Assembly (NCBI RefSeq): GCF_001542915.1
Contig: NZ_LNNH01000010.1
Coordinates: 181,039-245,038 of the forward strand
Direction: 5' to 3'
DNA from: Peribacillus simplex
Lineage (GTDB): Bacteria > Bacillota > Bacilli > Bacillales > DSM-1321
DNA length: 64,000 bases
Shown here one piece after another: positions 39,588-56,220 of the stretch (positions are counted from its first letter, which is position 1; each line of letters opens with the position of its first letter). The position numbers were made by a program, and so were the translations under genes. The notes beneath the pieces are model-generated. The model worked only from the letters and a program-made list of their open reading frames with translations. It was not told where the DNA came from and did no database searches.

Positions 39588-39626
39588 TTTTTGCACCCTT
39601 TCTGTTTTAGCAATGAAGTTTTAAAT

Positions 39627-39846: not shown

Positions 39847-41091
39847 TCAGCGTACACTCATTTTCTTTTCGTCATCATCTCCTATAATAGGATAGATTTG
39901 ATCGGAAGATTGCCCTTTGGCAGGTTTGACCGTTCCTCTAATCAGAATCGTGGACACGATCGACAAGATGCCAATGATGAGGAAGCCGGTCGTCCTTGAA
40001 AACATTTCGATCAAGATCCCGATTAGGACAGGGCCCAAAAACATCCCCCCGGAATAGAGGCTTTGGAACAAGCCCAGTCTCGTGGATTGCTTGATCTCCG
40101 GTATGTTTTCGACGGCCCAGGAGGTGACGACCGTAAAGATCAAACCGTATCCAAAGCCTTGAAATGCTTGCAGGAGGAACAGCATGGACAGGCTTTGGGC
40201 ATAGGGAATCGCGATCACGATCACCCCTTGCAATACCGCACCTATGAACGCCGTTTTCACCAACCCGATCTTTTTGTAAAAAAAGCCTCCGCATAATGCT
40301 GCCGCTACCCCATATATGATCAGATGCGTATTGGCCAGCATGCCGATCAGCAAGGGATTTGCGCCCAGGTCCGTTGCTACTAGAGGTGTGAACGTATCCC
40401 TTGTTGCAATGGTCACCATCAAGGCAACCGTTGCCAAGGCGGAAATGATCCAGATTTTTTTATCGGTAACTTGCTCGATGAGTATTTTCTTATCGTATTT
40501 GACCTTCATTTTAATACTTATATCCTTCGTGAAGCAGGTTAATATCAACGCAAGGATCGCTGCGGCAACAGCGACCAAAAAACTATAACGATAGCCATAA
40601 CTGTTGGCCACCAGCGCACCGGTCGTCGTTCCCAGGATCGAGCCAATCGGCGATGCGACGCTCAATATCGCGACAGCCTTCGCAGCTTCCTTCACGCCAT
40701 AATAGGAAGCGAACATGACGTTATAAATCACCCAGGTCGAACCTGTCAGTCCGTCCGAAATCTTCCCGAGATACAAGGTTGTTGCATTTGGGATGAAAAA
40801 GGCTAACGTCCACAGGACGATCGTGACCAACAACCCCAATTGGATGAACAATCTCCGTTTATGGAACATATCTGAAAGTATCCCTATTGGAAGTCTGGTC
40901 AATAAGGCGACAATCCCCGATATTCCGATTATGCTGCCGATAACGACGGAATCGAACCCGAGATCTTTAGCGTAAGAGGAGATAAATGGATCAAATGCCG
41001 AAATGGTGACAAAGAACAACAAGCTAATGATAAAGAATAAAATGGTCTCTTTTCGATTGTTCATTTTATTGGTTCGGTTCATATATTCCAT
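39847..41091 (-). CDS. MFS transporter of the catabolic locus
   Basis: A 414-residue major facilitator with 12 predicted membrane segments. The loop RLPIGILSDMFHKRR matches the MFS signature between segments 2 and 3. It lies 128 bases downstream of the histidinol-dehydrogenase-like gene with a GC hairpin (41157-41184, no T run) between, so it is probably the last gene of the SnoaL/dehydrogenase unit and could import its substrate (inference); an exporter role is not excluded. ATG 41091 follows GGGAGGGG; another ATG lies three codons on. Confidence 0.75.
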   Translation of the reverse strand: MEYMNRTNKMNNRKETILFFIISLLFFVTISAFDPFISSYAKDLGFDSVVIGSIIGISGIVALLTRLPIGILSDMFHKRRLFIQLGLLVTIVLWTLAFFIPNATTLYLGKISDGLTGSTWVIYNVMFASYYGVKEAAKAVAILSVASPIGSILGTTTGALVANSYGYRYSFLVAVAAAILALILTCFTKDISIKMKVKYDKKILIEQVTDKKIWIISALATVALMVTIATRDTFTPLVATDLGANPLLIGMLANTHLIIYGVAAALCGGFFYKKIGLVKTAFIGAVLQGVIVIAIPYAQSLSMLFLLQAFQGFGYGLIFTVVTSWAVENIPEIKQSTRLGLFQSLYSGGMFLGPVLIGILIEMFSRTTGFLIIGILSIVSTILIRGTVKPAKGQSSDQIYPIIGDDDEKKMSVR

Positions 41092-41219
41092 CCTTTCATT
41101 CCCCTCCCTTGCCTTCCCTTCGTTCGGAAAGGCGCTCTTTTCTCTCATGATGCCCTAGCCCCCCATCCACCTTAAAGGGGGGCTTGAAGCTTTATGGAGC
41201 TTGCCTTATATCATTCATT

Positions 41220-42473
41220 TCACGACATCCTGACCGTGGCTGATAGTTTATGGCCTTCCAATCCTTCAATTTGGGATTGGTCTTCTGCATGGGAGGCCAG
41301 GAATTGAATGCCTTGGCCTGTAATTTCCTGATGGGTCATCACCTTCACATAGCTTCCTGCCCATAATCCGCCCGTATACCTTGCTGCCTTTTGAGTGGGC
41401 AGGGTATGGTTCGTGCCGGAAACCTTGTCCGAAAAGACGACGGAGCTGCCTTCGTCGAGGAACAATGATCCATAATTATATAACCTATCCATCAAATCAC
41501 GGCTTTTTTCAATATGCAGATGCAAATGCTCTATGGCATAGTCATTGCAAATATCGAGGCCTTCCTGCAGCGATTCCGCCAAAATGATTTCGCCTCTTTT
41601 TTCCCATGATTCATGAGCGGGCGATGATGGTGAAAAGGATTTCAAAATCCGTGCGACTTCGGTTTCCGTTTCCTTGCCAACCGCCCGGGAAGTCGTAACG
41701 AGAATGGCCCGTGCGTAAGGATCGTGTTCTGCCTGGGCAAGCAGATCAGCCGCGATTTTCGTCGGTGATGCGGAATCATCGGCAAATACCATGACCTCGC
41801 TCGGTCCTGCAATAAGGTCAATGCCGACCTTCCCGAATACTTGGCGCTTTGCTTCTGCCACGAAGCGGTTTCCTGGCCCTGCGATGATATCCACTTCGGG
41901 AATGGATTCCGTTCCATACGCCATCGCTGCAATCGCCTGGGCACCGCCGATGGCGAAAATGTCTGTCGCACCGGATCGAATCAATCCATATAAAACAGCT
42001 GGATGGATGCCGCCTTCATAATTGGCCGGGCTACAGGCAACGATTCTTTTTGCCCCGGCCACCTTTGCCGGGGCAACGACCATGGGCCCTGATGACAATA
42101 AAGGGAATCTCCCCCCTGGTACGTAAGCACCTACCTTTTCGATCGGGACGATTCGATGCCCCATTTTGATTCCTTCTCCAAAATCCTTTTCGAATGGTGT
42201 CAGACAGCTCAGCTGCGCCTTGGCAAATTCACTGACCCTATCCACGACCCGATCGATGAGGGCTTTCACCTCATCTGGCAGCGTCCTCATGCAGCGATCC
42301 AGCTCCTCTTCACTTACCCGGACCGGACGATCGGATTGGCCGAATTTCCTTTCGTATTCCTGTACGGCCGCATCTCCGCCCGCTTTTACATGCTCAATAA
42401 TGGACTTTACCGTTTGTTCTACATCATTTGAAGAGGTCTGCTCCAACGCTTCCGCTTTCTTCATATATTCCAT
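41220..42473 (-). CDS. histidinol-dehydrogenase-family enzyme, catabolic paralogue
   Basis: A 417-residue zinc- and NAD-dependent dehydrogenase with the HisD fold. Motifs include VGAYVPGGRFPLLSS, IAGPGNRFVAEAK and DLIAGPSEVMVFAD. The zinc ligands look intact: Q and H in LLAQAEHD, D in SDKVSGTNHTLPT, and the late H in EGLEGHKLSAT. HisD enzymes oxidise an alcohol through the aldehyde to the acid. No other his gene is near, and the neighbours are catabolic, so a role like that of the HisD homologue HpsN (sulfopropanediol dehydrogenase) but on an unknown alcohol is likely. The start is supported by AGGAGGAAAATGAG. Confidence 0.82.
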   Translation of the reverse strand: MEYMKKAEALEQTSSNDVEQTVKSIIEHVKAGGDAAVQEYERKFGQSDRPVRVSEEELDRCMRTLPDEVKALIDRVVDRVSEFAKAQLSCLTPFEKDFGEGIKMGHRIVPIEKVGAYVPGGRFPLLSSGPMVVAPAKVAGAKRIVACSPANYEGGIHPAVLYGLIRSGATDIFAIGGAQAIAAMAYGTESIPEVDIIAGPGNRFVAEAKRQVFGKVGIDLIAGPSEVMVFADDSASPTKIAADLLAQAEHDPYARAILVTTSRAVGKETETEVARILKSFSPSSPAHESWEKRGEIILAESLQEGLDICNDYAIEHLHLHIEKSRDLMDRLYNYGSLFLDEGSSVVFSDKVSGTNHTLPTQKAARYTGGLWAGSYVKVMTHQEITGQGIQFLASHAEDQSQIEGLEGHKLSATVRMS

Positions 42474-42533
42474 CTCATTTTCCTCCTATTCGTGTCATTA
42501 CCTGCTGCAGCACAGCCGCTAAAAACCGATCAA

Positions 42534-43808
42534 TCATGATACGCCGGTAAAGTTCCCATCTTCCACTGTCGCTTCAGCATGTTGTTCGGAATCTTGTTCA
42601 TTCGGCAAATGGATTTGGCGCAATACTTCCATCCCATCAAACAATAACCATTCCTCGAGGATTTTTTCATTGCGGATTTTATAATGGCTGATTCCAGCAA
42701 TATCGATGGCGTTTCCGCTAGGCGCTCCAAAGTATCCTGTTCCTTCGTGCATCCCTTGGATTCTCCAGCGCACCGCTACATCCCAGTCACTTTCCGAGCC
42801 GCGTTTATTGCACGTCACCCGTTCCACGATCACTTTCCCGTTCGGAACGGAGGCAAACAAACTCATGAACATTCCTTGAATTTCACTCGCTCCAATGACA
42901 TCCTTATTGCAGACATAATGAACGACGGCATTTTCCTCATAATATTGACGAACGAAGTTAAAGGAGCGCCGTGCCCAGATGCGGTTGAATACAAGCTGCA
43001 TGAACTCCCCGATCTCGAATTCATCAGATGATGGCGTGAAGACCTTTGGCGGGAGCCCCATTTCCGCTGTCTCATTAAAGCCGAATTGAATCGATGGAGC
43101 GAGCTTCAGCGTGCTTTTGGCCATTTTTTTAGCCACCTCGACAGGATCCAGGCCAAGCTGTAAAACAAGGTGGTAGGTATCCATCACAAGCCACTCTTCG
43201 TGAATTTTATTATTCAAGATCAAACAATCGGCGCTTGTTCTGAACATCACTTTCTTTCCGGTGGCCGGGCCGTATAAGCTATCTCCAAGATTCGTCGCAA
43301 CCGAACGTCCCCGGTGGGAGGTGAAAAATCCTTCTTCATCATTTCCTGACCAGATTACACTCCATCCCAGTCCTTTCCGATCGGGAAACGCATGCAAGGT
43401 TTGCAGCGTGCCTGATATGACTTCGTTAACGCCGTGACTATTGATCAGCCCTTTATGAACGGAGACACTTGTGCTATACGTATCGTAAATCAGGCCGATG
43501 TCTTTTTCCTTCCAGATTTGACGCGTGATTTTTACGATATAATCGACGATGTTGTTGTATTCCGGGTCAAAACCGTTCATCCGCTGTTTCTTTTGATACA
43601 TTTCTTCTATATTTATGTAATCGGAGTCATCCTTCGTATCCAGCATATTCACTTCATCAGCATCCGCATAGAAGATGTAGTTGGGCGATCTCTTGATTGG
43701 TTGACTCATTTTCCTTGCTGCCTTTCCTTCTTTTGGAGCCACATTGATTGAACCTGCTTTTTCCTCTTTTACCGCCATTTCGATTGAACCTGAATTTTTT
43801 TCTGCCAT
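42534..43808 (-). CDS. double SnoaL-domain protein, paralogue 1
   Basis: A 424-residue protein made of two SnoaL/NTF2-like domains. The N-domain (about 85-235) ends KIHEEWLVMD and the C-domain (about 265-405) ends KILEEWLLFD, so the halves are themselves repeats. SnoaL-fold proteins act as cyclases, isomerases or epoxide hydrolases, or bind small molecules; family databases call such proteins ester cyclases. An extra N-terminal piece has a duplicated segment (GSIEMAVKEEKA/GSINVAPKEGKA). AAAGGATGG precedes the start. It begins a unit with its own promoter and palindrome and is followed by the HisD-like gene 60 bases on. Confidence 0.72.
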   Translation of the reverse strand: MAEKNSGSIEMAVKEEKAGSINVAPKEGKAARKMSQPIKRSPNYIFYADADEVNMLDTKDDSDYINIEEMYQKKQRMNGFDPEYNNIVDYIVKITRQIWKEKDIGLIYDTYSTSVSVHKGLINSHGVNEVISGTLQTLHAFPDRKGLGWSVIWSGNDEEGFFTSHRGRSVATNLGDSLYGPATGKKVMFRTSADCLILNNKIHEEWLVMDTYHLVLQLGLDPVEVAKKMAKSTLKLAPSIQFGFNETAEMGLPPKVFTPSSDEFEIGEFMQLVFNRIWARRSFNFVRQYYEENAVVHYVCNKDVIGASEIQGMFMSLFASVPNGKVIVERVTCNKRGSESDWDVAVRWRIQGMHEGTGYFGAPSGNAIDIAGISHYKIRNEKILEEWLLFDGMEVLRQIHLPNEQDSEQHAEATVEDGNFTGVS

Positions 43809-43874
43809 AGTGGATAACCATCCTTTTTAATAGAGTTATAGCTTCCTTACATTCAACGCAAGATATCTAGACCT

Positions 43875-43888
43875 TGTAAACGCTTTAA
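43875..43888. promoter_or_regulatory. candidate cre site
   Basis: The minus strand reads TTAAAGCGTTTACA, one base from the CcpA consensus, in the leader of the SnoaL paralogue 1 unit. Suggests carbon catabolite repression. Confidence 0.5.
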
Positions 43889-43942
43889 GCTGCTTCGTCT
43901 ATCTTTTTTTTGCCCACTTTGCAACATTAGGAAAATGTTACA

Positions 43943-43960
43943 TTTGAATACGCATTCAAA
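43943..43960. promoter_or_regulatory. LacI-type operator, copy 3
   Basis: TTTGAATACGCATTCAAA, one base from the perfect palindrome found before the SDR and ADH genes. It sits just downstream of a good promoter. Confidence 0.75.
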
Positions 43961-43976
43961 ATATTGGGTATCATCG

Positions 43977-44005
43977 AATATAAATAATTTTCTAACTAAT
44001 GTAAA
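43977..44005 (-). promoter_or_regulatory. sigma-A promoter of the SnoaL1-HisD unit
   Basis: TTTACA (44000-44005), 17-base spacer, TATATT (43977-43982). The same hexamers and spacing as the promoter at 52.6 kb. Confidence 0.7.
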
Positions 44006-44006
44006 T

Positions 44007-44070
44007 AAAAAAAATCAAAAGGAGAAACCTCCATTACTCTCCCCCTAAAAGTAAAAAGAAGGCTCCTTTT
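44007..44070 (-). terminator. terminator after SnoaL paralogue 2
   Basis: AAAAGGAG/CTCCTTTT arms around a long loop, then T8 on the minus strand. It separates the upstream catabolic unit from the SnoaL1-HisD unit. Confidence 0.6.
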
Positions 44071-44133
44071 CGCAGGAATATATATGGCGCCTGAATACCG
44101 CATCAAATAAGAAAAATGGGGGGCATGCAGCAA

Positions 44134-45300
44134 TTAAATGGGTTCATCCTCTGTATCTAAAAAGGTTTGCCTTAATACATCTATTCCATCAAATACGATC
44201 CATTCTTCAACGATTTTTTCATTGCGAACCTTCAGATGGGTGATTCCAAGAATTTCGATAGGCTTTCCACTCGGCAAACCAAAAGTGCCAATTCCCTCAT
44301 GAATGCCTTGCAATCTCCATCTTACAGCCACATCCCACTCTTTATTGCCTTCACCTTGATTGCACGTAACTCTTTCCAAGATTACTTTGGCCGTTGGGAA
44401 CGATGCAAATAAACTAACAAGCAATCCTTGGATTTTATTGTGGCCTACGATATCTTGATCACAAATGTAATGGACCACTGCATGATCTACGTAAAAATCC
44501 TTTACATGATTAAATAATCGCAGTTCCCAAATTTTATTGTACATTTCTAAAACAAAATCGCCAATATCGAAACATTCGTGCTTGTTAGTGTATACTTCTG
44601 GCATGAATTGACCTTCCATTGCTTCAGGTCTTCCGAAACTAGACTGTTTTTGAGAGGTGCGTGCCAGTTTTTTAGCAATCTCGACCGGATTATATCCCAA
44701 TTGTTTAACGATATGAAGATAATCCCTTACAAGCCATTCTTCCACAATCCTGTTAGAATGAACAACACAATCTGCAATCACTCTAAATGTTGCCCTTTTA
44801 CCTGTCGCTGGTCCAAAGCTCGTCGCCCCTAGATTTGTCCCCATTGACATACTGCGGTGAGATGTATAAAAGGAATCCTGATCATTCCCTGACCATATGA
44901 CTTGTTCCCCGACTACCTTGCGATCTGGAAAAGAATGCTGCATTTGAATGGAACTTGACAGGACATGATTGATGCCATAATGATTAAGTGATCCCGCATG
45001 TAAAATCGATTCATTATGGTAGTGGGAATAGATCAAGCCAAAGCCTTTTTCTTCCCAAATGCGGTGGGTGCATTTCACAATATAATCCACAATGTCTACA
45101 TAGGTTTTATCGAAACCTCTCATGCTTTGTTTCCGTATCGTTTTCTTCGAATATTCGTTATAATCTGCATAGCCTAAACGATTCACTTCTGCATTATCTC
45201 CGTAAAAAACCTTGTCATGAAGAACTATATTATTAGGTGTGTTGTTACTATCTAGTGATTCTTTCTTTTCCATCACTTTACTATCATCTACTTTTGTCAA
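44134..45300 (-). CDS. double SnoaL-domain protein, paralogue 2
   Basis: About 388 residues from the chosen start, with the same two-domain plan as its neighbours: N-domain ending RIVEEWLVRD, C-domain ending KIVEEWIVFDGIDVLRQ. Highly conserved shared pieces are KQSMRGFDKTYVDIVDYIVK, HSFPDRK, VIWSGNDQ, GPATGKR and VTCN. The frame is open to an ATG at 45351 without a ribosome site; TTG at 45300 (LTKVDDSK) aligns with the start of paralogue 3 (MTKSTE) and has AAGGGG upstream, so I prefer it. A decayed fourth copy lies between it and paralogue 3. Confidence 0.7.
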   Translation of the reverse strand: MTKVDDSKVMEKKESLDSNNTPNNIVLHDKVFYGDNAEVNRLGYADYNEYSKKTIRKQSMRGFDKTYVDIVDYIVKCTHRIWEEKGFGLIYSHYHNESILHAGSLNHYGINHVLSSSIQMQHSFPDRKVVGEQVIWSGNDQDSFYTSHRSMSMGTNLGATSFGPATGKRATFRVIADCVVHSNRIVEEWLVRDYLHIVKQLGYNPVEIAKKLARTSQKQSSFGRPEAMEGQFMPEVYTNKHECFDIGDFVLEMYNKIWELRLFNHVKDFYVDHAVVHYICDQDIVGHNKIQGLLVSLFASFPTAKVILERVTCNQGEGNKEWDVAVRWRLQGIHEGIGTFGLPSGKPIEILGITHLKVRNEKIVEEWIVFDGIDVLRQTFLDTEDEPI

Positions 45301-45354
45301 TTTTTCACACATCCCCTTACATTTGTTTGGCCCCTGTTTCTTGATTGGCATGAA

Positions 45355-45684
45355 TTTGATTCAAAATATCCATCTCATCAAAAATGATCCATTCTTCTAC
45401 AAGTTTAATCGCTAGTTTTCAATAGGTTCATAGCTTGGTTGACCAAAGAATGCTCTTCCTTTAACCTTCATTAACGGCACCGCTTTAGGTACAGGTCACC
45501 CTTTCAAAATCGGGCGGCAGGATACGAAGCAAAAAAATAGGCCAACATTCACTGGATTCGAGCGTTTTATCGTCAATAAAATGACCGGTAGCGTTATCTC
45601 TATAAAAGCTCTTACTTGGTTGAAAGATCGCTGTTCCATGATAAAATCACCCATTTCGAAAGTGCCCGATACACTCTCGGAAGT
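45355..45684 (-). pseudogene. decayed C-terminal half of a fourth SnoaL paralogue
   Basis: Starting just after the stop of paralogue 3, the minus strand shows pieces that align in order with the C-domain of its neighbours: FEMGDFIM, QRSFNQV, a degraded middle, ERVTCT, RAFFGQPSYEPIEN and finally VEEWIIFDEMDILNQ. These sit in different frames and are interrupted by several stops, so the copy is dead. It shows the array once had four members. Confidence 0.65.
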
Positions 45685-46881
45685 TTACAGTTCTTTTTGC
45701 GGTGATTCTTCCATATCATCTGTGTTCATGTAAATCTGTTTGAGGACATCCAATCCATCAAAGGTCATCCACTCTTCGCCTATTTTGCCGCCAATCACGC
45801 GCAGCTGAGTGATACCTAGAATATCAACCGGTTTCCAGCTCGGTTGCCCGAAGCAGCCGATTCCTTCATGAAGTCCCTGGAGACGCCATCTTACAGATAC
45901 ATCCCAAGCATCATGATCATCTCCCGGGTTGCAGGTCACACGGTCCATTAAAAACTTAGCGTTCGGGAATGATGCAAACAGGCTTACGAGCATCCCTTGA
46001 ATCTGATCGTAGCCACTAAGGTCTTTATCGCAAATATAATGTACCACCGCGTGATCCGCGTAATAGTCAGGTAATTGATTAAACAAACGCCACTCCCAAA
46101 TCTTATTGTACATATCCTGAATGAACTCACCGATTTCGAATTGAGCGGATTTCGGTTCGAACACAGCAGGCATCAATTGACCATTCATCGTCTCGCTTAA
46201 GCCATAGCTTTGCTGAAAGGAATTTGCAGTATTTCTTGCCAGGATTTTTGCCATTTCATGAGGGTCCAGGCCTAGCTGTTGAACAATATGAAGATTATCC
46301 CTCACTAACCATTCCTCATAAATCCGATTCGAGTGCACGGCACAATCGACAGTGGTCCTGAAGTTCACCCTTTTCCCAGTCGATGGTCCAAATAGCGAGT
46401 CCCCTAAATTCGTTGCAGTCGAATTAATTCGATGGGAGGAATAAAAGCCCTCTTTATCGTTACCAGACCAAACAACGTTTCCTCCTATTAATCTCCTGTC
46501 TGGAAACGCATGTAAGGTTTGCAAGGTATTGGAGATGACTGCATTCATTCCTTGAAGATTTAAAGACCCACAGTGCATGGTGACATTATTATGGTACGTT
46601 TTATAAATGACACCAATGCCTCGTTCTTCCCAAATTTGGTGAGTGATTTTCATGATGAAATCCACTATGTCCAAGTACTGAGGATCAAAACCATCCATGC
46701 TTTGCTTTCGATTCAGCTTTTTCCTATACTCATTAAAATCATGAAACCCCAACCTATTAACTTCTTCGCTATTTCCATAATGGATTTTCCCATTATTGGA
46801 ATTTAGCACCTTCCTTGTTACAGCTGATTGTACTGAATCTTTTTCCTCGTTCACATCGATGGTTTCTGTGGATTTAGTCAT
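45685..46881 (-). CDS. double SnoaL-domain protein, paralogue 3
   Basis: A 398-residue double SnoaL/NTF2-fold protein. N-domain (about 60-205, IWEERGIGVIYKTYHNNVTMHCGSLNLQGMNAVISNTLQTLHAFPDRRL...RIYEEWLVRD), C-domain (about 240-385, IWEWRLFNQLPDYYADHAVVHYICDKDLSG...KIGEEWMTFDGLDVLKQI). The histidines and acidic residues in HAVVHYICD and HEGIG are kept in all three paralogues and may line the pocket. It starts 15 bases after the aldolase stop with GAGGAGTTAATCGC, so it belongs to the long catabolic operon. No signal peptide. Confidence 0.72.
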   Translation of the reverse strand: MTKSTETIDVNEEKDSVQSAVTRKVLNSNNGKIHYGNSEEVNRLGFHDFNEYRKKLNRKQSMDGFDPQYLDIVDFIMKITHQIWEERGIGVIYKTYHNNVTMHCGSLNLQGMNAVISNTLQTLHAFPDRRLIGGNVVWSGNDKEGFYSSHRINSTATNLGDSLFGPSTGKRVNFRTTVDCAVHSNRIYEEWLVRDNLHIVQQLGLDPHEMAKILARNTANSFQQSYGLSETMNGQLMPAVFEPKSAQFEIGEFIQDMYNKIWEWRLFNQLPDYYADHAVVHYICDKDLSGYDQIQGMLVSLFASFPNAKFLMDRVTCNPGDDHDAWDVSVRWRLQGLHEGIGCFGQPSWKPVDILGITQLRVIGGKIGEEWMTFDGLDVLKQIYMNTDDMEESPQKEL

Positions 46882-46896
46882 GCGATTAACTCCTCT

Positions 46897-47679
46897 TCAA
46901 GATGATTTGATAGGTTGCACTGGTTTGCTAGCCGAGACGACATCATCTAACGCAGAGGTAATCACATTATTCAATATGACCCCAACGTATTGTGCACCTT
47001 TGTCAAATGCCCCATTAGCGGCAGCACCATTACCGGCAACCGTCCCAATCGGCACATCCAGCTCCTTCGCTTTTTCGAAAAGTCCATGGATGACCTTTTG
47101 CACTTCAGGGTGACTGGCCCCTTCCACGGAATGGCCCATGCTCACGGAGAGGTCCGTCGAGCCGATGAAGGCTAAGTCGATTCCAGGTACTGTGGCAATG
47201 GCTTCGAAGTTGCTGGCTGCCGTTTGCGTTTCAATATGCACAATTATCATAACATTTTCATTACTCTCATCTAAATAAGGTTTTCCACTTTCTTTTCCGT
47301 AGCGTGCGGGCCTCGTCGAATACGATACCCCCCTATTTCCATATGGCGGGAATTTGGCCCTGCTCACGACATCAAGCGCCTCTTCCTTTGTATTGACCAT
47401 CGGTACTTGTACACCTTTTGCACCGCGATCCAAGGCCTTTTGAATACTGGAAGGGTCATAGGAAACCCGGACGATCGGGACAAGCCCGCATGAATCCGCC
47501 GTACGGATCATACTCTCAAGCTCGGTGGGACTGAAGGCGCCATGCTCATCATCGATTACGACAAAATCAAAGCCGGCATAGCCGATCATTTCGACTAAGG
47601 GCGGTGAATGAATGCCTATAAATGCTCCAAGAACCTGTTCGCCTTGCTTTATTTTTTCCTTTACTTCATTCTTCATCAT
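46897..47679 (-). CDS. HpcH/HpaI-family class II aldolase
   Basis: A 260-residue metal-dependent aldolase that splits 4-hydroxy-2-oxo acids into pyruvate (or a related oxo acid) and an aldehyde. Motifs: FDFVVIDDEHGAFSPTE, IVRVSYDPSSIQKALDRGAKGVQVPMV, the metal glutamate in IIVHIETQTA and the aspartate in LAFIGSTDLSVSMG. The start is supported by GAGGGAAG. It lies between the hydrolase (13-base gap) and SnoaL paralogue 3. In this locus it is the most likely carbon-carbon-cleaving step, with the aldehyde dehydrogenase handling the aldehyde product (inference). Confidence 0.85.
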   Translation of the reverse strand: MMKNEVKEKIKQGEQVLGAFIGIHSPPLVEMIGYAGFDFVVIDDEHGAFSPTELESMIRTADSCGLVPIVRVSYDPSSIQKALDRGAKGVQVPMVNTKEEALDVVSRAKFPPYGNRGVSYSTRPARYGKESGKPYLDESNENVMIIVHIETQTAASNFEAIATVPGIDLAFIGSTDLSVSMGHSVEGASHPEVQKVIHGLFEKAKELDVPIGTVAGNGAAANGAFDKGAQYVGVILNNVITSALDDVVSASKPVQPIKSS

Positions 47680-47692
47680 CTTCCCTCACTTT

Positions 47693-48400
47693 CTACAAAG
47701 CGTATTCATTCCATAACCAAGCCCTCAATAAGGCACTTACTTTTTCTGGCTGCTCTAACGTACTTAAATGACCTGAATGATTCACGATTTCCAGTCTCGC
47801 TTCCCGGATATTTTCTTGCAGGAATTCAGACATATGGACAGGGCACACGACGTCTTCCTTTCCTGTCAGAATCATGGTCGGACATTCAATGGAGGAAAGA
47901 ATGGGGCGCTGGTCAGAGCGAGTCATCACGGCTTTTAACTGATTGATATACCCTGCTTTACCGACTTTCTCAGCCATTTCGATAATCGTTGAGACCAATG
48001 CTTCATCATTTCTCCGGTCTGGATGGATCAACACCGGCAGCAGGTGGTTGTGTGTAATATCGAGGAATAGACCGTTATCGGCCATTTCGATGAGCCTCTC
48101 CCAGCCTGAGATTTGTTCAGGTTGGGGAGGATATGGATTTGTATCGAGCAACGCTAGCTTTAGGACCCGCTCCGGTGCGATTCGCATGATTTCAAGAGAG
48201 ATGATGCCGCCCAGTGATAACCCCGCAAGGGCAAACCGATCAGGTGCCTCTTTCAATACCGACTTTGCCATGCCCTCGATCGTATCAGCTTTGGACACAT
48301 CACATACTTTTACATCTGCAAGATCCGATAGTTTCAGCGATTCCCATAAACGTTCATCACAAAGCGTTCCAGGAAGCAGAATGAGCGGTACCTTTTGCAT
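47693..48400 (-). CDS. alpha/beta hydrolase
   Basis: A 235-residue serine hydrolase: opening LILLPGTLCDERLW, nucleophile elbow AGLSLGG, aspartate in LTGKEDVVCP and histidine in IVNHSGHLSTLEQPE. It resembles MhpC/carboxylesterase-like lactone or ester hydrolases. The ATG lies two bases after the cupin stop, so the two are translationally coupled. It may hydrolyse an ester, lactone or ring-cleavage product in the pathway. Confidence 0.82.
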   Translation of the reverse strand: MQKVPLILLPGTLCDERLWESLKLSDLADVKVCDVSKADTIEGMAKSVLKEAPDRFALAGLSLGGIISLEIMRIAPERVLKLALLDTNPYPPQPEQISGWERLIEMADNGLFLDITHNHLLPVLIHPDRRNDEALVSTIIEMAEKVGKAGYINQLKAVMTRSDQRPILSSIECPTMILTGKEDVVCPVHMSEFLQENIREARLEIVNHSGHLSTLEQPEKVSALLRAWLWNEYAL

Positions 48401-48402
48401 GC

Positions 48403-49026
48403 TTATTTTTCACCCATTTTCAATTTATCGGCGATTTCCTTTTCAAGTTCTTCGAAGTTATCCGGTTTAATCATTTTTCCTAATTCATTGGCGTGGAAGC
48501 CATATTTAGCAGCATCTTTAATCACTTTTGGCGACCAGTAAGGGTCTTTTCCATCAAATACTTGATGTTGTTCAAGCACGGCAAAGATCCAGGCATCTTC
48601 TTCACTGATGTTTTCGAAGCCTCTCCATAAACCTGGCGGCAAGGAAATCAAGTCCCATTGCTCGATGATCGTTTCACCATCAATTTCATCCGGTCCTTTT
48701 CCCCAGTAAAAACGCCATTTCCCTGAAAGAGGAAGGAAGGATTCAATATAGTCATGCGTATGGTAAGCGGGTCCGTTGCCTTTCTGGGCCTTCACCATTC
48801 CGATTTGAAAACCATGCGGCTCCGTAATCTCCGGTGTGAAGTTATCATTTTCACTTGCTGTATCCCCGATTAATGTATAGTTGAGGCGTTGATGTCCTGG
48901 AATGATGCTGTCGATGAACATAAGCGGTATTCCTTTTGCTTTCATTTGATCGAAACGGACGATCCAATTGTTTTCCATTTCCTCATTCGTTACCGCTTTT
49001 TTCACTTTTGGCTCTTGTACTGTCAT
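48403..49026 (-). CDS. cupin-domain protein
   Basis: A 207-residue single-cupin protein. Metal-binding motif 1 appears as YHTHDYIESFLPLSGKWRFYWG and motif 2 region as EQWDLISLPPGLWRGFEN. It could be an isomerase, dioxygenase or small-molecule-binding protein; its substrate is unknown. ATG 49026 follows AAGGGGAAATTAAA. In the catabolic operon, 47 bases after the aldehyde dehydrogenase. Confidence 0.75.
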   Translation of the reverse strand: MTVQEPKVKKAVTNEEMENNWIVRFDQMKAKGIPLMFIDSIIPGHQRLNYTLIGDTASENDNFTPEITEPHGFQIGMVKAQKGNGPAYHTHDYIESFLPLSGKWRFYWGKGPDEIDGETIIEQWDLISLPPGLWRGFENISEEDAWIFAVLEQHQVFDGKDPYWSPKVIKDAAKYGFHANELGKMIKPDNFEELEKEIADKLKMGEK

Positions 49027-49073
49027 TTTAATTTCCCCTTCCATCTTCGTTATTTTTTAAAATTTCAATTTAT

Positions 49074-50510
49074 TCAAAGCGTAAAGACGGCAAGCTTCAA
49101 TTCCGTCATTTCCTCCACTGAATATTTAACCCCTTCTTTGCCCGTGCCGCTGTTTTTCACACCGCCATATGGCATATGGTCAACCCTGAATGATGGGATA
49201 TCATTCACGATGACACCGCCCACTTCCAGCCGCTCGACCGCATCGAACGCTTTTGGCATCGAAGTTGTATACACCCCTGCTTGAAGGCCGTATAAGGAAT
49301 CATTGACAAGGTCGATGGCTTCATCCCAGGTTTTATAGGCGTTCACTGACACGATTGGCGCAAATGCTTCTTGACAGCTTACTTCCTGTGTTGACCCTGC
49401 ATTTTTGATAATGGTTGGATGAAGGACTGCATCTGTTCTTTGCCCGCCATAAACGATTTCCGTTCCAGCCATTCTAGCCGATTCAATCCACTTTTCCACA
49501 CGTTCCGCTTCATTGATATGAATTAGTGCGGAAAGGTCTGTATCTTCGGATTCCGGATCGCCCATTTTAAGCTGCTTCGTCTTTTCAGTGAATTTTTGTA
49601 AAAATGCTTCATGTAAATCTTCTTGAACATAAATTCGCTGGATCGAGATGCATACCTGACCGGAATAAGCAAAGGAACCCTCGACACAACGCGCTGCAAC
49701 GGCATCCAAGTCATCAGCACTGTCTATGATGACAGCTGAATTGGAACCAAGCTCCAATGTCACTTTTTTCAAACCCGCTTTTTCTTTGATTCCCAAACCG
49801 ACGTCGACACTTCCTGTAAACGTAACCATTTTAATTCTGGGATCAGTGACCAAAACATCGCCGACGACGCTTCCCTTACCTGTGACGACATTGAGAGCTC
49901 CTTTAGGCAAGCCTGCTTCTTCAAAGATTTTCGCGGCCATGATTGCGCTTAACGGCGTTTGTGAAGCTGGCTTTAATATGACTGCGTTACCTGCAGCAAA
50001 CGCAGGGCCCAGCTTATGTGCCGCTAAATTAAACGGAAAGTTAAAGGGTGTGATCGCCGCAATGACGCCAAGCGGTTCACGCTTCGTATAAGCGAAACGG
50101 CCTTTGCCGTTTTTAGCGGCATCCATCGGAATCGTTTCACCATGGATCCGTTTTGCTTCCTCCGCCGCAAACTTATACGTCTCGATCGTGCGGAGGATTT
50201 CCCCCCTTGCGGCCTTCAATGGCTTGGCATTCTCTTTAGCGAGTATTAATGCACATTCCTCAAGTCTTTCCTGAAATAGTGCGGCTGCGCGTTCCAAAAT
50301 GGTTGAACGCTCAAGCGCCGTTAGCTTTCTCATTTCCTTCGCACCACGTTCGGCACATTCGATCGCGTTTAAAACGGTTTCCCTTTCTGCCAAAGGAACT
50401 TGTGCGATCACCTTACCGGAGAAAGGAGACCGAAGCTCGTAATGATTGTTTCCTTCCAGCCACTCGCCCCCGATGAATAATTTCTTTCTATCAGAATCTG
50501 TACCAATCAA
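49074..50510 (-). CDS. NAD(P)-dependent aldehyde dehydrogenase
   Basis: A 478-residue aldehyde dehydrogenase. It has ITPFNFPFNLAAHKLGPAFAAGNAVILKPASQTP, FTGSVDVG, the glutamate in VTLELGSNSAVI and the catalytic cysteine in SFAYSGQVCISIQR. It resembles lactaldehyde/succinate-semialdehyde/phosphonoformaldehyde-type enzymes. The frame opens at 50570 but would overlap the ADH gene; TTG 50510, one base after the ADH stop and behind GGAGGGAAACTAAG, gives a family-like start (FIGGEW). Confidence 0.86.
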   Translation of the reverse strand: MIGTDSDRKKLFIGGEWLEGNNHYELRSPFSGKVIAQVPLAERETVLNAIECAERGAKEMRKLTALERSTILERAAALFQERLEECALILAKENAKPLKAARGEILRTIETYKFAAEEAKRIHGETIPMDAAKNGKGRFAYTKREPLGVIAAITPFNFPFNLAAHKLGPAFAAGNAVILKPASQTPLSAIMAAKIFEEAGLPKGALNVVTGKGSVVGDVLVTDPRIKMVTFTGSVDVGLGIKEKAGLKKVTLELGSNSAVIIDSADDLDAVAARCVEGSFAYSGQVCISIQRIYVQEDLHEAFLQKFTEKTKQLKMGDPESEDTDLSALIHINEAERVEKWIESARMAGTEIVYGGQRTDAVLHPTIIKNAGSTQEVSCQEAFAPIVSVNAYKTWDEAIDLVNDSLYGLQAGVYTTSMPKAFDAVERLEVGGVIVNDIPSFRVDHMPYGGVKNSGTGKEGVKYSVEEMTELKLAVFTL

Positions 50511-50511
50511 C

Positions 50512-51708
50512 TTAGTTTCCCTCCCTTCCTTTAAAGGCGCTTTGATAGATTCCAAGAATCTTTTGTTCATTTAGCTTATAAGGAGTATTCGATAGCAAGC
50601 GATCGATTTTAGCAGCTTGTTCCGCCATCATCGGTAATGAGCCTTCATCGATCCCCAGTTCAGATAACGATGTTGGTAAATCCAGATCCTCCAGAAGCTG
50701 ATACATGTAATCAACAACTGCCTTCAATGCTTGATGCGGTCGTGATTTGTAATCACCCAGCTGTAAAAAGGTCGCTACTTCAATCATTTCTTCCGTACAT
50801 GTTTTTCCGATTACTTCGAAAACAAATGGCATTAAGAGAGCATTTGCGACTCCATGCTCAATATGGAATGTTCCGCCTAGCGGATAGGCGAGTGCGTGCA
50901 CCGCCCCAACCCCCGCATTGGCAAGGGCCACTCCCGCAAGCGAGCTTACCCAGCTCATCCCGATCCGCGCCTCTAAGTCACTTCCATTGTGGACAGCTCC
51001 CGTAATGTTCGAAGTGAATAGCTTCATCGCCTTTTCAGAGTAAACCTTCGTGAGCGGTGTCGACTTGATGGCGATATACGATTCAATCGCATGGGTAAAC
51101 GCATCCACCCCTGATGCCGCGGTCACTCGAGGCGGGCAGGAAATGGTCAGCTCCGGATCGATGATGGCTGCATCAGGAAGGAACACTGGACTTACCAGCC
51201 CTCTTTTGACTTGCTGCTCTTCATCGCCGAAAATGGCATTCATCGTCACTTCCGAACCTGTTCCGGAGGTTGTCGGCAGAAGGATGCATTTCACCATTCT
51301 CGATTTGATCGTTTCCTCCCCATTTAAATAGGGAGCCAAATTGTCTTTTCCGCATAAAGCGGCTGTTGCTTTGGCGACATCCAGCGCACTTCCCCCGCCA
51401 ATCCCGATGATCAAGTCGCAATTCTCGGCTTGAAGCGTTTCTACGGCATCCTGCAATAGCTGAAACGTTGGCTCGCCGGCAATATTCGTATACGTGACGG
51501 TTGGAATGGAAAGCGGTTCAATCAAATCGACCACTCTTTGGACTACGCCTACCTTTTCAAGCCCTTTGTCACTAACGATCGCCACCTTCCTGGAACCAAG
51601 CGTTTCTATTTCTTTCACCAATGTTGCAAATGCCCCGGCACCGAATCGGAAAACGGCAGGCATTCGAAAATCATGGCTCATATGATGCCTATATTGATTA
51701 ATTGACAT
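50512..51708 (-). CDS. iron-containing alcohol dehydrogenase
   Basis: A 398-residue group III alcohol dehydrogenase: NAD motif IIGIGGGSALDVAKA, TTSGTGSEVT, and metal-ligand segments SGVDAFTHAIESY, GVGAVHALAYPLGG and FHIEHGVANALLMP. The start has AAAGGAGGATGAAAC. A LacI-type palindrome lies 13-30 bases before the ATG. Oxidises or reduces an alcohol/aldehyde pair of the pathway; the substrate is not known. Confidence 0.86.
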   Translation of the reverse strand: MSINQYRHHMSHDFRMPAVFRFGAGAFATLVKEIETLGSRKVAIVSDKGLEKVGVVQRVVDLIEPLSIPTVTYTNIAGEPTFQLLQDAVETLQAENCDLIIGIGGGSALDVAKATAALCGKDNLAPYLNGEETIKSRMVKCILLPTTSGTGSEVTMNAIFGDEEQQVKRGLVSPVFLPDAAIIDPELTISCPPRVTAASGVDAFTHAIESYIAIKSTPLTKVYSEKAMKLFTSNITGAVHNGSDLEARIGMSWVSSLAGVALANAGVGAVHALAYPLGGTFHIEHGVANALLMPFVFEVIGKTCTEEMIEVATFLQLGDYKSRPHQALKAVVDYMYQLLEDLDLPTSLSELGIDEGSLPMMAEQAAKIDRLLSNTPYKLNEQKILGIYQSAFKGREGN

Positions 51709-51720
51709 GTTTCATCCTCC

Positions 51721-51738
51721 TTTGAATACGTATTCAAA
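51721..51738. promoter_or_regulatory. LacI-type operator, copy 1
   Basis: Perfect 18-base palindrome TTTGAATACGTATTCAAA between the SDR stop and the ADH ribosome site. Confidence 0.8.
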
Positions 51739-51743
51739 AAAAC

Positions 51744-52523
51744 TCACCAGACGGTCCACCCGCCATCAATCACCAAGGTTTGGCCCGTCATCATATCCGA
51801 ACTTCGTGATGCCAGATAGAGCACACCTCCGAATAGGTCTTCCGATTTGGCAAGCCTGCCAAGAGGGATCCTCCCCAATACTTCGCGTCTAAAGGCTTCA
51901 TCTGCAAACATCGGCTTTGTCATCGGTGTCTCTATGAAAGTCGGGGCTATGGCATTGACATTGATTTGATGGGGCGCCCACTCTATTGCCAGCGCTTTCG
52001 TAAGCTGGGTGATTCCCCCTTTGCTGGAGGAATAGGCTGCCCGCTTGTAATAGCCGACAAACGCCATTTGCGAGGACATATTGATGATTTTCCCTTTTTT
52101 CTGGTTGATCATATACTTGCCTGCTGCTTGACTCGTGAAGAATACACTCTTTAAATTAATGTCCAACACCTTATCCCAATCTTGTGGTGTTAACTCTTCC
52201 GCTGGCTTTGCCACATTGATTCCTGCGTTATTTATTAAAATATCGAGCTGACCGAAATGCTTGTAGATTCCATCCATCATCTGTGCCGTGTCTTCCACCT
52301 TCGTTAAATCAAAAGGAACGGGTAAAACATTCACACCGATTCGTTCAATTTCATGTGCAGCTTCTTCGAGTTGCTCTTTATTGCGGGCAACTATGGCGAT
52401 ATGGGCCCCGGCCTGCGCAAGGGTTTTGGCCAACTCTTTGCCGATCCCCTTACTTGCGCCGGTTATGATCGCCACTTTACCGTTTAAATGAAATATTTGA
52501 TTAATGTCCAATCTATCACCCAT
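51744..52523 (-). CDS. SDR-family oxidoreductase
   Basis: A 259-residue NAD(P)-dependent dehydrogenase of the gluconate-5-dehydrogenase/3-oxoacyl-ACP-reductase type: TGASKGIG at 21-28, NNAGINVAKPAEELTPQDWDKVLDINLKSVFF, serine in INMSSQMA, YSSSK and IAPTFIETPMTKPM. The frame opens at 52568, inside the leader next to the operator; the ATG 52523 (MGDRLDINQIFHLNGK) is the more usual start. First structural gene after the LacI regulator. Confidence 0.82.
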   Translation of the reverse strand: MGDRLDINQIFHLNGKVAIITGASKGIGKELAKTLAQAGAHIAIVARNKEQLEEAAHEIERIGVNVLPVPFDLTKVEDTAQMMDGIYKHFGQLDILINNAGINVAKPAEELTPQDWDKVLDINLKSVFFTSQAAGKYMINQKKGKIINMSSQMAFVGYYKRAAYSSSKGGITQLTKALAIEWAPHQINVNAIAPTFIETPMTKPMFADEAFRREVLGRIPLGRLAKSEDLFGGVLYLASRSSDMMTGQTLVIDGGWTVW

Positions 52524-52573
52524 CTTTATCTCATCGAAGAGATTTTTGTAAATTCCGGAATGAAGCATTTGCC

Positions 52574-52591
52574 TTTGAATACGTATTCAAA
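52574..52591. promoter_or_regulatory. LacI-type operator, copy 2
   Basis: TTTGAATACGTATTCAAA, identical to copy 1, about 40 bases downstream of the -10 box at 52.63 kb, where it could block elongation or initiation. Confidence 0.8.
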
Positions 52592-52627
52592 AAATGGGAT
52601 GCAGTGTTTTAATCGATTACAAACTAA

Positions 52628-52656
52628 AATATATACAACTTTCCGACTTTTGTAAA
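52628..52656 (-). promoter_or_regulatory. sigma-A promoter of the catabolic operon
   Basis: TTTACA (52651-52656), 17-base spacer, TATATT (52628-52633). Confidence 0.7.
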
Positions 52657-52730
52657 TAGTTAGATTATTTTTTTACGAAGAAATTTTCAACAAACATACT
52701 TGAGGACCACCCCAAAGCCGGTCATGACAC

Positions 52731-53759
52731 TCAGTCTTGTTTTGGGGCGGGTCCCGTTGTACGGCGGATCATCAATTCAGGCTCAAGGAATATTTGGATC
52801 GATGCCGCTGCTTCTTCTTCTTTATGTTCAATTAGATATATCAGTTTCTCCAAAGCCGTCAACGACATTTCATCCATTTTTTGCGATATGGTGGTCAGCC
52901 CGATGAATTCATTGGAAGCTAGCCTTATATTATCAAACCCGACAACGGACAAATCATCCGGGATTTTCATATCGAGGCTGGAAGCTGCACCTAAAACGGC
53001 GAGGGCCATTTGATCGGATGCGGCGATGATTGCTGTCGGCCTGTCTTTTTTCTTCAGCAGTTTTTTCGTGAATGAATAAATTTTATCATAGGAAAATTCA
53101 CTACTGAAAATCAAATCGTCATCGATTGCATATCCATTGTCCGTAAGCTCTTGTTTATAGCCCATCGTTCGTTCATAAGTCGCTAAGTATTTGGAAGGCC
53201 CGGATATTTTCGCAATTTTTTCATGTCCTAATCCCAATAGGTGCTGGACGGCTACCCTCGCCCCTTTATTATTGTCCATGACGATAAAGTTCACATCCTC
53301 GATATCCAGGAAGCTATTATATAATAATACCGGAAATCCATTATCATGTAATTTCTTGATTTTTTCAGTATAGTTTTTACTCACACTTGTGAGGATGATT
53401 CCGTCCACCCGCTTACCAATCAGCAAATTAATCGCCTGCTCCAGGTTTTCATCTTTATGACCGGTATTGTATACGATTACATCATATTTCAATTGCTGGG
53501 CCCTTTCGATGATGACCTCGGCCGTTTCGGCAAAGAACGGATTGGAAATGCTCCCCAATATCAACCCTATCGACTTCGTTCTTTTTTCAACAAGGCTTCG
53601 GGCAATTTCATCCCTTGTGAACCCCAGTTCTTCAATGACAGCCAGAACCTTTTCACGGGTATGCTTCTTAATATAGGGATAGTCATTCAACACCCTCGAA
53701 ACAGTTGACTGTGAAACACCAGCAATTCTTGCCACATCTTCTGTCGTCAATCTTTTCAT
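52731..53759 (-). CDS. LacI-family transcriptional regulator
   Basis: A 342-residue regulator: LacI helix-turn-helix at 4-26 (LTTEDVARIAGVSQSTVSRVLN), hinge, and a periplasmic-binding-protein-like effector domain (IGLILGSISNPFFAETAEVI; GFDNIRLASNEFIGLTTISQ). It lies directly upstream of the catabolic operon on the same strand and is the obvious candidate to bind the three TTTGAATACGYATTCAAA palindromes, which have the central CG usual for LacI operators. The effector is probably a pathway substrate or intermediate. AAAGGA precedes the start. Confidence 0.87.
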   Translation of the reverse strand: MKRLTTEDVARIAGVSQSTVSRVLNDYPYIKKHTREKVLAVIEELGFTRDEIARSLVEKRTKSIGLILGSISNPFFAETAEVIIERAQQLKYDVIVYNTGHKDENLEQAINLLIGKRVDGIILTSVSKNYTEKIKKLHDNGFPVLLYNSFLDIEDVNFIVMDNNKGARVAVQHLLGLGHEKIAKISGPSKYLATYERTMGYKQELTDNGYAIDDDLIFSSEFSYDKIYSFTKKLLKKKDRPTAIIAASDQMALAVLGAASSLDMKIPDDLSVVGFDNIRLASNEFIGLTTISQKMDEMSLTALEKLIYLIEHKEEEAAASIQIFLEPELMIRRTTGPAPKQD

Positions 53760-53967: not shown

Positions 53968-54813
53968 TCATTGAAACTTTTCCTTCAAAAAGCGATACAG
54001 GCCATCTTCTCTATAGGAATACTCCGTCACTTCATCTGCCTGTTCTTTGACAAGATCAGTGGCGTTTTTCATGGCAATGCAGCGTCCGGCGAATTTAAAG
54101 AGCGGAAGGTCATTTTCACCATCACCCACAGCGAGGATATTTTGGGGCTCCACCTGAAAATGCTTCAGCAATATTTGAACGCCCGTTGCTTTCGAAACGC
54201 CCTCCACGGTCACTTCCACATTATGATGGGTCGAGGATGCTGTTGTGAAAGCATGCTCCTTCTTGATCCATTCCAGCTCGGCTATCCATTTCTCCATGGT
54301 ATGGATGTCATTGCTGAAAAAGTAGATTTTGGCGACGCTGTCAGTATCCATTTGTTCCACCCATTTTATTTTCCCTTCCATTGCCTCCTGTCTTGAGAGC
54401 CATTCATTCTCCTCGACTGTAGCAGGCTTTTGCACCATTCCTTGTTTAACCATATAGCCTTTATCTTTTTTTAACGTCATTCGTGCTCCGTCGTTCGGAT
54501 GCACTTCGTAATACATCTCTTCCGCTCCCGCTTTCGCAACCAATCGCTCCACAAGTTGTGGCGGCAGGGCGTGTTCAATGATCTGATTGCCTTCAATGAA
54601 TGCGGACATCCCATTCGCGGTCACCATGGCATCGACGAGCATATGAGACGGCACAACGTCCTTCAATTCTTCCAGCGTCCTTCCCGTTGCAATGAACACC
54701 AGCTTTCCCCTTTCCCTAAGTTCCCCTATGTACTGGATCAGTGTTTCGTTCACCGTATTGATTTCGTTCAATGTCGTGCCATCCAAATCCAGCACGATTG
54801 CTTCAATCGTCAT
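53968..54813 (-). CDS. HAD-family (Cof-type) sugar phosphatase
   Basis: A 281-residue cytoplasmic phosphatase of the Cof/HAD-IIB group: nucleophile motif D9-x-D11-GTTL, ATGRT, and GDGENDLPLF near the C-terminus, with a C2 cap between. It would dephosphorylate a sugar phosphate, fitting its place as last gene of a PTS operon, 107 bases after the IIC gene. The start is supported by GAGGTGATGTAG. The gap holds a 9-bp CCAGCAGCC/GGCTGTTGG hairpin without a T run. Confidence 0.82.
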   Translation of the reverse strand: MTIEAIVLDLDGTTLNEINTVNETLIQYIGELRERGKLVFIATGRTLEELKDVVPSHMLVDAMVTANGMSAFIEGNQIIEHALPPQLVERLVAKAGAEEMYYEVHPNDGARMTLKKDKGYMVKQGMVQKPATVEENEWLSRQEAMEGKIKWVEQMDTDSVAKIYFFSNDIHTMEKWIAELEWIKKEHAFTTASSTHHNVEVTVEGVSKATGVQILLKHFQVEPQNILAVGDGENDLPLFKFAGRCIAMKNATDLVKEQADEVTEYSYREDGLYRFLKEKFQ

Positions 54814-56189: not shown

Positions 56190-56220
56190 TGCCTCTCCCC
56201 CTCTTCTTTATCTTTTCTTC

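Follow-up and report, generated by a model that had tools for sequence, protein, structure and literature searches.

We have analysed a 64,000-nucleotide stretch of the Peribacillus simplex genome (contig NZ_LNNH01000010.1; hereafter the window) that carries, on the minus strand between positions 39847 and 53759, twelve genes for a LacI-family regulator, a short-chain dehydrogenase (SDR), an iron-type alcohol dehydrogenase (Fe-ADH), an aldehyde dehydrogenase (ALDH), a cupin, an alpha/beta hydrolase, an HpcH/HpaI-type aldolase, three paralogous proteins with two SnoaL stretches each (Sno1, Sno2 and Sno3), a HisD-like dehydrogenase and a carrier of the major facilitator superfamily (MFS). We regard it as fairly probable that these genes constitute a two-module, LacI-controlled catabolic operon, the core of a regulon, devoted to a sugar-like or carbocyclic compound. 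All the enzymes belong to known families; the literature searched yielded neither their combination nor the class of the HisD-like enzyme nor the regulon. The system would recur in Bacillota, Chloroflexota and at least one alphaproteobacterium, and would comprise a distinct class of HisD-like enzyme, a family of double-SnoaL proteins and a regulon predicted with precision. It can be tested at once, through the operator and through the apparent substitution of a second HisD-like enzyme (HisD2) for Fe-ADH plus ALDH.

A preliminary description of this DNA had placed the twelve genes on one strand, and all proved to be complete and intact open reading frames (ORFs) there; Pfam backs every family assignment except that of the cupin. 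Intergenic gaps from SDR to Sno1 measure 2-35 bp, and the Fe-ADH and ALDH ORFs overlap by 59 bp. Sno2 is flanked by gaps of 333 bp and 325 bp, so that the operon is not one tight run, and the gap between Sno2 and Sno3 (325 bp) carries its own promoter-like and operator-like site. The nearest named kin are Peribacillus sp. SI8-4 (locus L029) and P. muralis DSM 16288 (L030), whose Sno3 proteins are 96% and 89% identical to that of the window. Against these two loci, dN/dS ratios ranged from 0.03 to 0.18 for 12 of 12 genes (0.06-0.13 for the SnoaL genes), which indicates purifying selection; the more distant L036 gave an estimate for three genes only.

Related loci were collected with two peptide patterns, which returned 27 (22 from Bacilli and five others), so the family is covered in part; as loci were trimmed to some 10 kb either side, any absence from them is local. 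Co-occurrence was counted in 35 of 42 laid-out loci, after dropping L085 and L107 (duplicates of L054 and L051), L089 (which overlaps L088), L033 (broken ORFs), L087 (contig end) and L094 and L095 (fragmentary, or loci of a different kind). L104 and L105 are closely related, and L055 was counted as lacking SnoaL because an overlapping ORF had been chosen, though it does have one. Judging by gene content, the locus is divided into two modules. Module A comprises the SDR, Fe-ADH, ALDH, cupin, hydrolase, aldolase and SnoaL genes, and module B the amidase, transporter, Sno3 and HisD-like genes. L046 and L047 contain module A only, with its LacI gene, plus a sodium symporter gene and a second SnoaL-type gene. 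In L037, L048 and L050, module B (amidase, ATP-binding cassette (ABC) importer, Sno3 and HisD-like) stands beside a LacI gene of a different type, and module A is present with its own LacI gene. L029, L030 and the genome G013 have MFS and amidase genes behind the HisD-like gene, both of which the window lacks. Beyond Bacilli, double-SnoaL genes are paired with HisD2 and SDR in five of six Chloroflexota loci (L051 and L103-L106; the exception, L052, lies on a 12.9-kb contig) and in one of four alphaproteobacterial loci (L088, among L054, L055, L086 and L088), where LacI, cupin, aldolase, hydrolase and ABC importer genes accompany them in varying part. Homologue searches matched one genome beyond the window's own among 398 of its phylum (E<=1e-40) and five among 251 genomes of the phylum of L051 (E<=1e-30).

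The regions upstream of the genes point to a common regulator. A perfect 18-bp palindrome of the LacI-operator kind, TTTGAATACGTATTCAAA, precedes both SDR and Fe-ADH, and TTTGAATGCGTATTCAAA, an operator-like palindrome one pair short of perfect symmetry, precedes Sno3. These putative operators combine a palindromic form and a central CG with a location at the genes presumed to be regulated, as expected for LacI-type sites, and they agree with the LacI control that had been proposed beforehand. The SDR and Sno3 sites each follow a promoter-like site with identical hexamers (TTTACA-17-TATATT); the promoter scan gave 37 sites against 28.2 in shuffled sequences, so these two calls depend on position and likeness. 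When the 5.1-Mb genome (G000, 58 contigs) was scanned with up to two mismatches, the operator pattern occurred at seven places (three at the operon, two on contig C20, one on contig C12 and one inside a gene) and the reversed-pattern control at none. A site at 389-406 of the window, inside a response-regulator ORF and with two mismatches, was rejected as a regulon site, being probably due to chance. On one side of the C20 pair are divergent MFS and GH2 genes, on the other SnoaL genes and an MFS gene; this second SnoaL locus (L095, L115) contains one double-SnoaL gene and two short SnoaL-like genes that were recognised by BLAST only, Pfam giving no hit. The C12 site (C12:791404, L113) precedes a Mem_trans carrier gene. 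In the matching neighbourhood of G017 (L134), a binding-protein ABC importer like that of other loci lies between the operator and an 88% identical Mem_trans carrier, and the window strain therefore seems to have lost the importer.

The distribution of the operator among genomes follows that of the locus. A SnoaL match was found in 11 of 101 genomes, and 10 of these 11 have exact operator sites, the remaining one (G056) belonging to another genus. Exact sites were present in one of the 90 genomes without a SnoaL match, G008 (L135), between a LacI gene (87%) and a truncated SDR gene (81%), an apparent relic of the operon. Allowing three mismatches, at least one site was found in 20 of 22 Bacilli loci, in none of the five other loci and in none of 20 shuffled windows; the two Bacilli loci without a site are those of Cohnella. 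The helix VSQSTVSRVLN is common to the module A LacI proteins of all 17 Bacilli loci having a LacI longer than 300 aa. Operator sites, their distribution and the shared helix make predicted co-regulation of the operon genes well supported at the sequence level, and the operon is probably the core of a small LacI regulon including genes elsewhere in the genome.

Features of the catabolic locus, in positions of the window
Feature	Position	Strand	Basis
LacI-family regulator	52731..53759	-	PF00356/PF00532
Promoter-like TTTACA-17-TATATT before SDR	52628..52656	-	consensus match only
Operator-like perfect palindrome TTTGAATACGTATTCAAA before SDR	52574..52591		palindrome and pattern scans
SDR, gluconate 5-dehydrogenase/KduD-like	51744..52568	-	family and conserved residues
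Operator-like perfect palindrome before Fe-ADH	51721..51738		pattern scans
Fe-ADH	50512..51708	-	PF00465
ALDH	49074..50570	-	PF00171
Single-domain cupin	48403..49044	-	below Pfam cut-off, 22.8 vs 27.2 bits
Alpha/beta hydrolase, PcaD-like	47693..48400	-	profile match and conserved residues
HpcH/HpaI-type aldolase	46897..47679	-	PF03328
Sno1, double-SnoaL	45685..46881	-	PF07366; nearest to SnoaLs of module A-only loci
Sno2, double-SnoaL, separate lineage	44134..45351	-	PF07366
Promoter-like TTTACA-17-TATATT before Sno3	43977..44005	-	consensus match only
Operator-like palindrome before Sno3, one pair off	43943..43960		palindrome and pattern scans
Sno3, double-SnoaL of module B	42534..43808	-	PF07366
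HisD-like dehydrogenase, motif GRFPL	41220..42473	-	PF00815
MFS carrier	39847..41148	-	PF07690

Scores well above cut-off assigned the HisD-like protein at family level only (PF00815, 462.9 bits against 27; TIGR00069, 443.5 against 243.8). Its closest solved relatives in a PDB comparison were HpsN (309 bits) and (R)-2,3-dihydroxypropane-1-sulfonate (DHPS) dehydrogenase (304 bits), followed by HisD (272 bits). According to the excerpt of PMC11382572, HpsN has the motif GRY(A/S)H, whose last residue, His126, binds the sulfonate, and HisD the motif GSAPL. The window protein resembles HpsN in keeping the zinc ligands (Gln248, His251, His411 and Asp352), Glu318, His319 and Lys353, but reads GRFPL and has no His126. 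Every one of 32 SnoaL-linked rows (rows shorter than 381 aa, L033 and L045, left out; L051 and L107 are one gene counted twice) reads G-x-x-P-(L/M) at this place and none GRY(A/S)H; the zinc ligands, Asp352 included, Glu318, His319 and Lys353 are kept in all 32, among them the window row. Two HisD rows compared have GTASY and GTAAY, both without Lys353. Plain histidinol dehydrogenase is ruled out by GRFPL together with Lys353, and identity with HpsN by GRFPL in place of GRY(A/S)H. We read the protein, in view of its own motif and the retained zinc ligands and Lys353, as a putative third class beside HisD and HpsN that would act on a non-sulfonate substrate. The label of HisD homologue that it had been given thus stands for the family, but the protein is not HisD by motif and lacks the residue that defines HpsN. 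In the open-licence papers searched, no matching HisD-like catabolic enzyme beyond HpsN was found. Another HisD-family protein of the same genome, on C12, is 38% identical to it.

HisD2, which mostly reads GRYPM, is 59-66% identical across Bacillota, Chloroflexota and a metagenome-assembled genome (MAG) of Rhodobacteraceae; looser relatives are those of L091 (53%) and the second copies in L104 and L105 (50%). Among the 35 loci, 11 have HisD2 and 12 the Fe-ADH and ALDH pair, none has both and 12 have neither. The simplest reading is that HisD2 replaces the pair, both seeming to turn the same alcohol into an acid.

The description of Sno1, Sno2 and Sno3 as paralogous double-SnoaL proteins was confirmed by their PF07366 scores (88.1, 87.0 and 85.7 bits against a gathering cut-off of 28.4), by two SnoaL stretches in each and by pairwise identities of 48-60%, and the predicted model of Sno3 has two SnoaL-type folds. 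In a tree of 60 SnoaL proteins, Sno3 fell within a 21-row clade of module B proteins (support 100/100), Sno1 grouped with L046, L047, L049 and L091 with weak support (86/75), and Sno2 stood apart; elsewhere this tree is unsure at many long branches and unresolved forks. Since the three fall in different clades, a recent tandem duplication was ruled out. All three were seen together in no genome or locus other than the window genome, L029, L030 and G013 (L142), and 16 of 22 Bacilli loci have a single SnoaL gene in the fetched stretch; on these counts, and given the separate clades, the idea of a locus built around three SnoaL proteins acting together is not supported. A second deep subfamily, SnoX/SnoY (9 rows), stands alongside the main subfamily in Chloroflexota, Alphaproteobacteria, L046 and L047, and the number of SnoaL copies per locus ranges from 1 to 7 in the 35 loci. 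In the gap between Sno1 and Sno2 (45352..45684, minus strand), a tblastn search of two gaps picked up traces of a fourth double-SnoaL gene, matching Sno2 (best E 1.6e-5), Sno1 and Sno3 over short stretches. Asp210 is invariant and Asp391 nearly so among 30 aligned rows, a position that we take to be the catalytic place in SnoaL. A phmmer search of Sno1 against solved structures gave weak hits only. From the fold, the family may carry out cofactor-free acid-base chemistry. The proteins of the operon share the SnoaL domain and the predicted fold with SnoaL polyketide and ester cyclases, but differ in having two domains per chain and in belonging to a catabolic operon. The SnoaL-like MgaD also acts in a catabolic pathway, that of syringic acid, as a predicted isomerase; in the excerpt of PMC12314914 it belongs to another SnoaL family (pfam13577) and has other partner genes. 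L052 (an Anaerolineales MAG) has seven consecutive double-SnoaL-type ORFs behind its ABC importer genes, and in L054/L085 (a Sphingomonadales MAG) the double-SnoaL genes have GH42, GH43, tryptophan halogenase-like and sulfotransferase-like genes in their vicinity. A paper on a steroid pathway (PMC13101464) reportedly names SnoaL as well. Nothing matching was found in open-licence papers that would pair SnoaL with a pathway such as this.

For the other enzymes, residues conserved in at least 95% of aligned rows (14-27 rows per family) were listed, and we take them to be the catalytic residues. These are N138, S166, Y179 and K183 in SDR (26 rows), D202, H206, H271 and H285 in Fe-ADH (14 rows), N177, E273 and C307 in ALDH (15 rows), S62, D183 and H211 in the hydrolase (23 rows) and H46, R71, D84, E150 and D176 in the aldolase (27 rows). 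In the cupin, H95, H97, E101 and R141 are invariant (17 rows); its predicted model is poor (pLDDT 58), and phmmer against solved structures returned weak hits only. SDR is nearest to gluconate 5-dehydrogenase and KduD. Fe-ADH scored 277.9 bits with the lactaldehyde reductase model (cut-off 523) and ALDH 533 bits with that of lactaldehyde dehydrogenase (cut-off 650). The aldolase (PF03328, 105.8 bits against 25) has 2-dehydro-3-deoxy-galactarate aldolase (1dxe) as its best solved match, and shares the Pfam family and conserved residues of the GarL/HpaI class II aldolases, from which it differs in its scores (158-166 bits against equivalog cut-offs of 369-407; 159.5 against 406.75 for GarL and 157.7 against 368.8 for HpaI) and in being joined to the hydrolase in some relatives, namely as one ORF in L104 and L105. 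None of the NCBIfam matches listed for ALDH, Fe-ADH, the hydrolase or the aldolase reached its cut-off; for SDR, one of 25 did. The conserved aldolase residues are in keeping with the catabolic pathway with oxidations and an aldolase that had been put forward, and no described pathway with this gene set was found in the open-licence literature searched, as had been stated.

On these grounds a pathway can be proposed. Uptake would be by the MFS carrier here and by an ABC importer in relatives, and in the many relatives with an amidase a C-N bond would be hydrolysed at entry. The double-SnoaL proteins may catalyse isomerisation, elimination or hydration on successive intermediates, and SDR may act on a ring or chain carbonyl. 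The HisD-like enzyme would convert a primary alcohol beside a hydroxyl into a carboxylate, and Fe-ADH plus ALDH would perform a second alcohol-to-acid oxidation, which the second HisD-like enzyme would do in other genomes; enzyme class and replacement pattern link the two oxidations. The hydrolase would open a lactone or beta-diketone and pass the product to the aldolase, which would release an oxo compound together with pyruvate or a comparable keto acid, a link between hydrolytic opening and aldol cleavage drawn from the joined ORF and the gene order.

Several points weigh against this reading. All the evidence comes from sequence, as gene content, residues, operator-like sites and modules were computed; the order of steps is a guess, fold is the sole ground for the SnoaL role, and enzyme names give no substrate, since the NCBIfam matches are mostly below cut-offs. 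The P value of the HisD2 replacement (0.0055) is optimistic because the 35 loci are not independent, kinship having been ignored, and L035, L036 and L041 have module A genes but, within the stretch covered, no HisD2 and not the complete pair. The Cohnella loci L044 and L045 (with a HisD fragment at the edge of the latter) have MFS, amidase and Sno3 genes without module A, and the window version itself may be a reduced one, as it has no amidase or second MFS gene. As to the operator, allowing one mismatch gives single places in seven further genomes without the locus and matches the reversed-pattern control in three of 101 genomes, and the sole site of L041 falls within the amidase ORF. P. muralis has two near-perfect tandem operator clusters before other genes, so another regulator may use the same operator. 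Three tandem near-perfect copies stand before an ABC importer of P. muralis (L136, 6111-6184), with ThuA-like, Gfo/Idh-like and sugar-isomerase-like genes, named by eye, as neighbours.

Different routes could be built from the same genes. An ordinary linear aldarate or aldonate pathway, in which SDR, Fe-ADH/ALDH and the HisD-like enzyme would produce a diacid and the SnoaL proteins, acting as dehydratases, a 2-keto-3-deoxy acid to be cleaved into pyruvate and an aldehyde acid, is possible, though we consider it doubtful. The nearest relatives of the aldolase (2-dehydro-3-deoxy-sugar-acid aldolases) and of SDR, the LacI regulator and the sugar-type ABC importers all suit it, as do the OtnK- and OtnC-like genes, below cut-offs, of a second P. 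muralis locus (L093), which also has two SnoaL genes, two cupins and an aldolase and thereby recalls the Otn acid-sugar pathway (3-oxo-tetronate kinase and decarboxylase); such genes are not in the window locus. This route leaves unexplained, however, the amide-type hydrolases of 19 of 35 loci, the methyltransferase-type genes of eight of 35 and the IolN-like hydrolase of L049 (175.5 bits against a cut-off of 245). A sulfonate pathway, with the HisD-like protein as an HpsN-type DHPS dehydrogenase, SDR as HpsO and MFS as HpsU, seems very unlikely to us. It would agree with HpsN and (R)-DHPS dehydrogenase being the top solved relatives (309 and 304 against 272 bits), with the HpsO match of SDR (178 bits, eighth of 26), with sulfoacetaldehyde enzymes ranking second, below cut-off, among the NCBIfam matches of both ALDH and Fe-ADH, and with an Xsc gene above cut-off in the genome (C12:583639-585333). 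Two proteins of the genome also exceed the PF04295 cut-off and could be SuyB-type or sugar-acid dehydratases, the family presumably holding both. But GRFPL replaces GRY(A/S)H and His126, the sulfonate motif occurs in none of the 32 SnoaL-linked rows, and Xsc lies more than 200 kb from the sole operator-like site on C12. The Cupriavidus hps cluster does group HisD-type, oxidoreductase and MFS genes, but as given in the excerpt of PMC11382572 it consists of hpsRNOUP and suyAB, with no SnoaL, amidase, cupin, hydrolase or aldolase gene.

Other explanations concern the SnoaL proteins themselves. That the three paralogues form one heteromeric enzyme might be argued from their adjacency, from purifying selection on all of them and from the coexistence of two deep subfamilies in several other loci; we hold it to be quite unlikely, as the single copy of the 16 Bacilli loci mostly stands beside the same enzymes, so that one seems enough there. 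It is also unlikely, if slightly less so, that they are non-catalytic binders or carriers of a reactive intermediate, a role that NTF2-like folds can serve (NTF2 and designed binders were among the fold matches) and that the variable copy number would allow; the conservation of Asp210 and Asp391 at a place taken to be catalytic speaks against it. Other candidates, considered on general grounds, were rhizopine, sulfoglycolysis and levoglucosan-type pathways.

Returning to the two-module catabolic operon, the accessory genes of relatives give hints of its substrate. Besides the amidase, CN_hydrolase genes of a different family occur in L103, L104 and, by BLAST, L105. MetE-like genes are found in L055, L086, L088, L104, L105 and L106 (53-66% identical; L104/L105, 94%), with conserved His-x-Cys, Glu and Cys that we take to be the zinc ligands of MetE. 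URO-D, corrinoid-protein, RACo and MTHFR genes precede LacI on the same strand in L051, and L049 (Natroniella acetigena) has URO-D, IolN-like, KduI, AFOR and malic enzyme genes. The NCBIfam matches for IolN, OtnK, OtnC, URO-D, C-N hydrolase and MetE are all below curated cut-offs. The C-N hydrolases, methyltransferase-type genes and IolN-like hydrolase of relatives suggest a methylated, nitrogen-bearing, perhaps carbocyclic substrate.

One such substrate would be a methoxylated C7 cyclitol of the mycosporine or gadusol type; that the wider system degrades these compounds is rather unlikely. On general chemical grounds, release of the amino acid from the enaminone would fall to the C-N hydrolases, an amidase in Bacilli and CN_hydrolase in Chloroflexota, and the MetE-like, URO-D and corrinoid proteins of other lineages would take off the O-methyl group. 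An HpsN/HisD-type enzyme could chelate and oxidise the hydroxymethyl carbon beside the tertiary hydroxyl, and the hydrolase, cupin or IolN-like enzyme might open the cyclic diketone. If oxidised to 4-carboxy-4-hydroxy-2-oxoadipate, the opened C7 chain would be split by the aldolase into pyruvate and oxaloacetate; with the hydroxymethyl unoxidised and the extra hydroxyl of gadusol, 3-oxotetronate would result, the kind of substrate that the OtnK/OtnC-like pair of P. muralis would take. As the window operon has neither amidase nor methyltransferase, it would take a later intermediate. If true, this would provide a genetic route for the turnover of widespread natural sunscreens. No bacterial catabolic genes for these cyclitols were met among the papers listed in literature searches (25 of 97 matches and 20 of 2,536). 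Mycosporine-glycine gives a beta-diketone and glycine on heating, and Vibrio harveyi has been suggested to hydrolyse mycosporine-type compounds, according to the excerpt of a review (PMC3083659).

Finally, the operon is followed downstream by a siderophore-type ABC importer (35728-39596) and preceded at 53968-58840 by genes for a HAD hydrolase, a phosphotransferase system (PTS) EIIC-GAT component and a PRD regulator. The importer and the PTS genes (54921-58840) were rejected as parts of the pathway, since homologues beside the operon were seen in loci of this genus alone.

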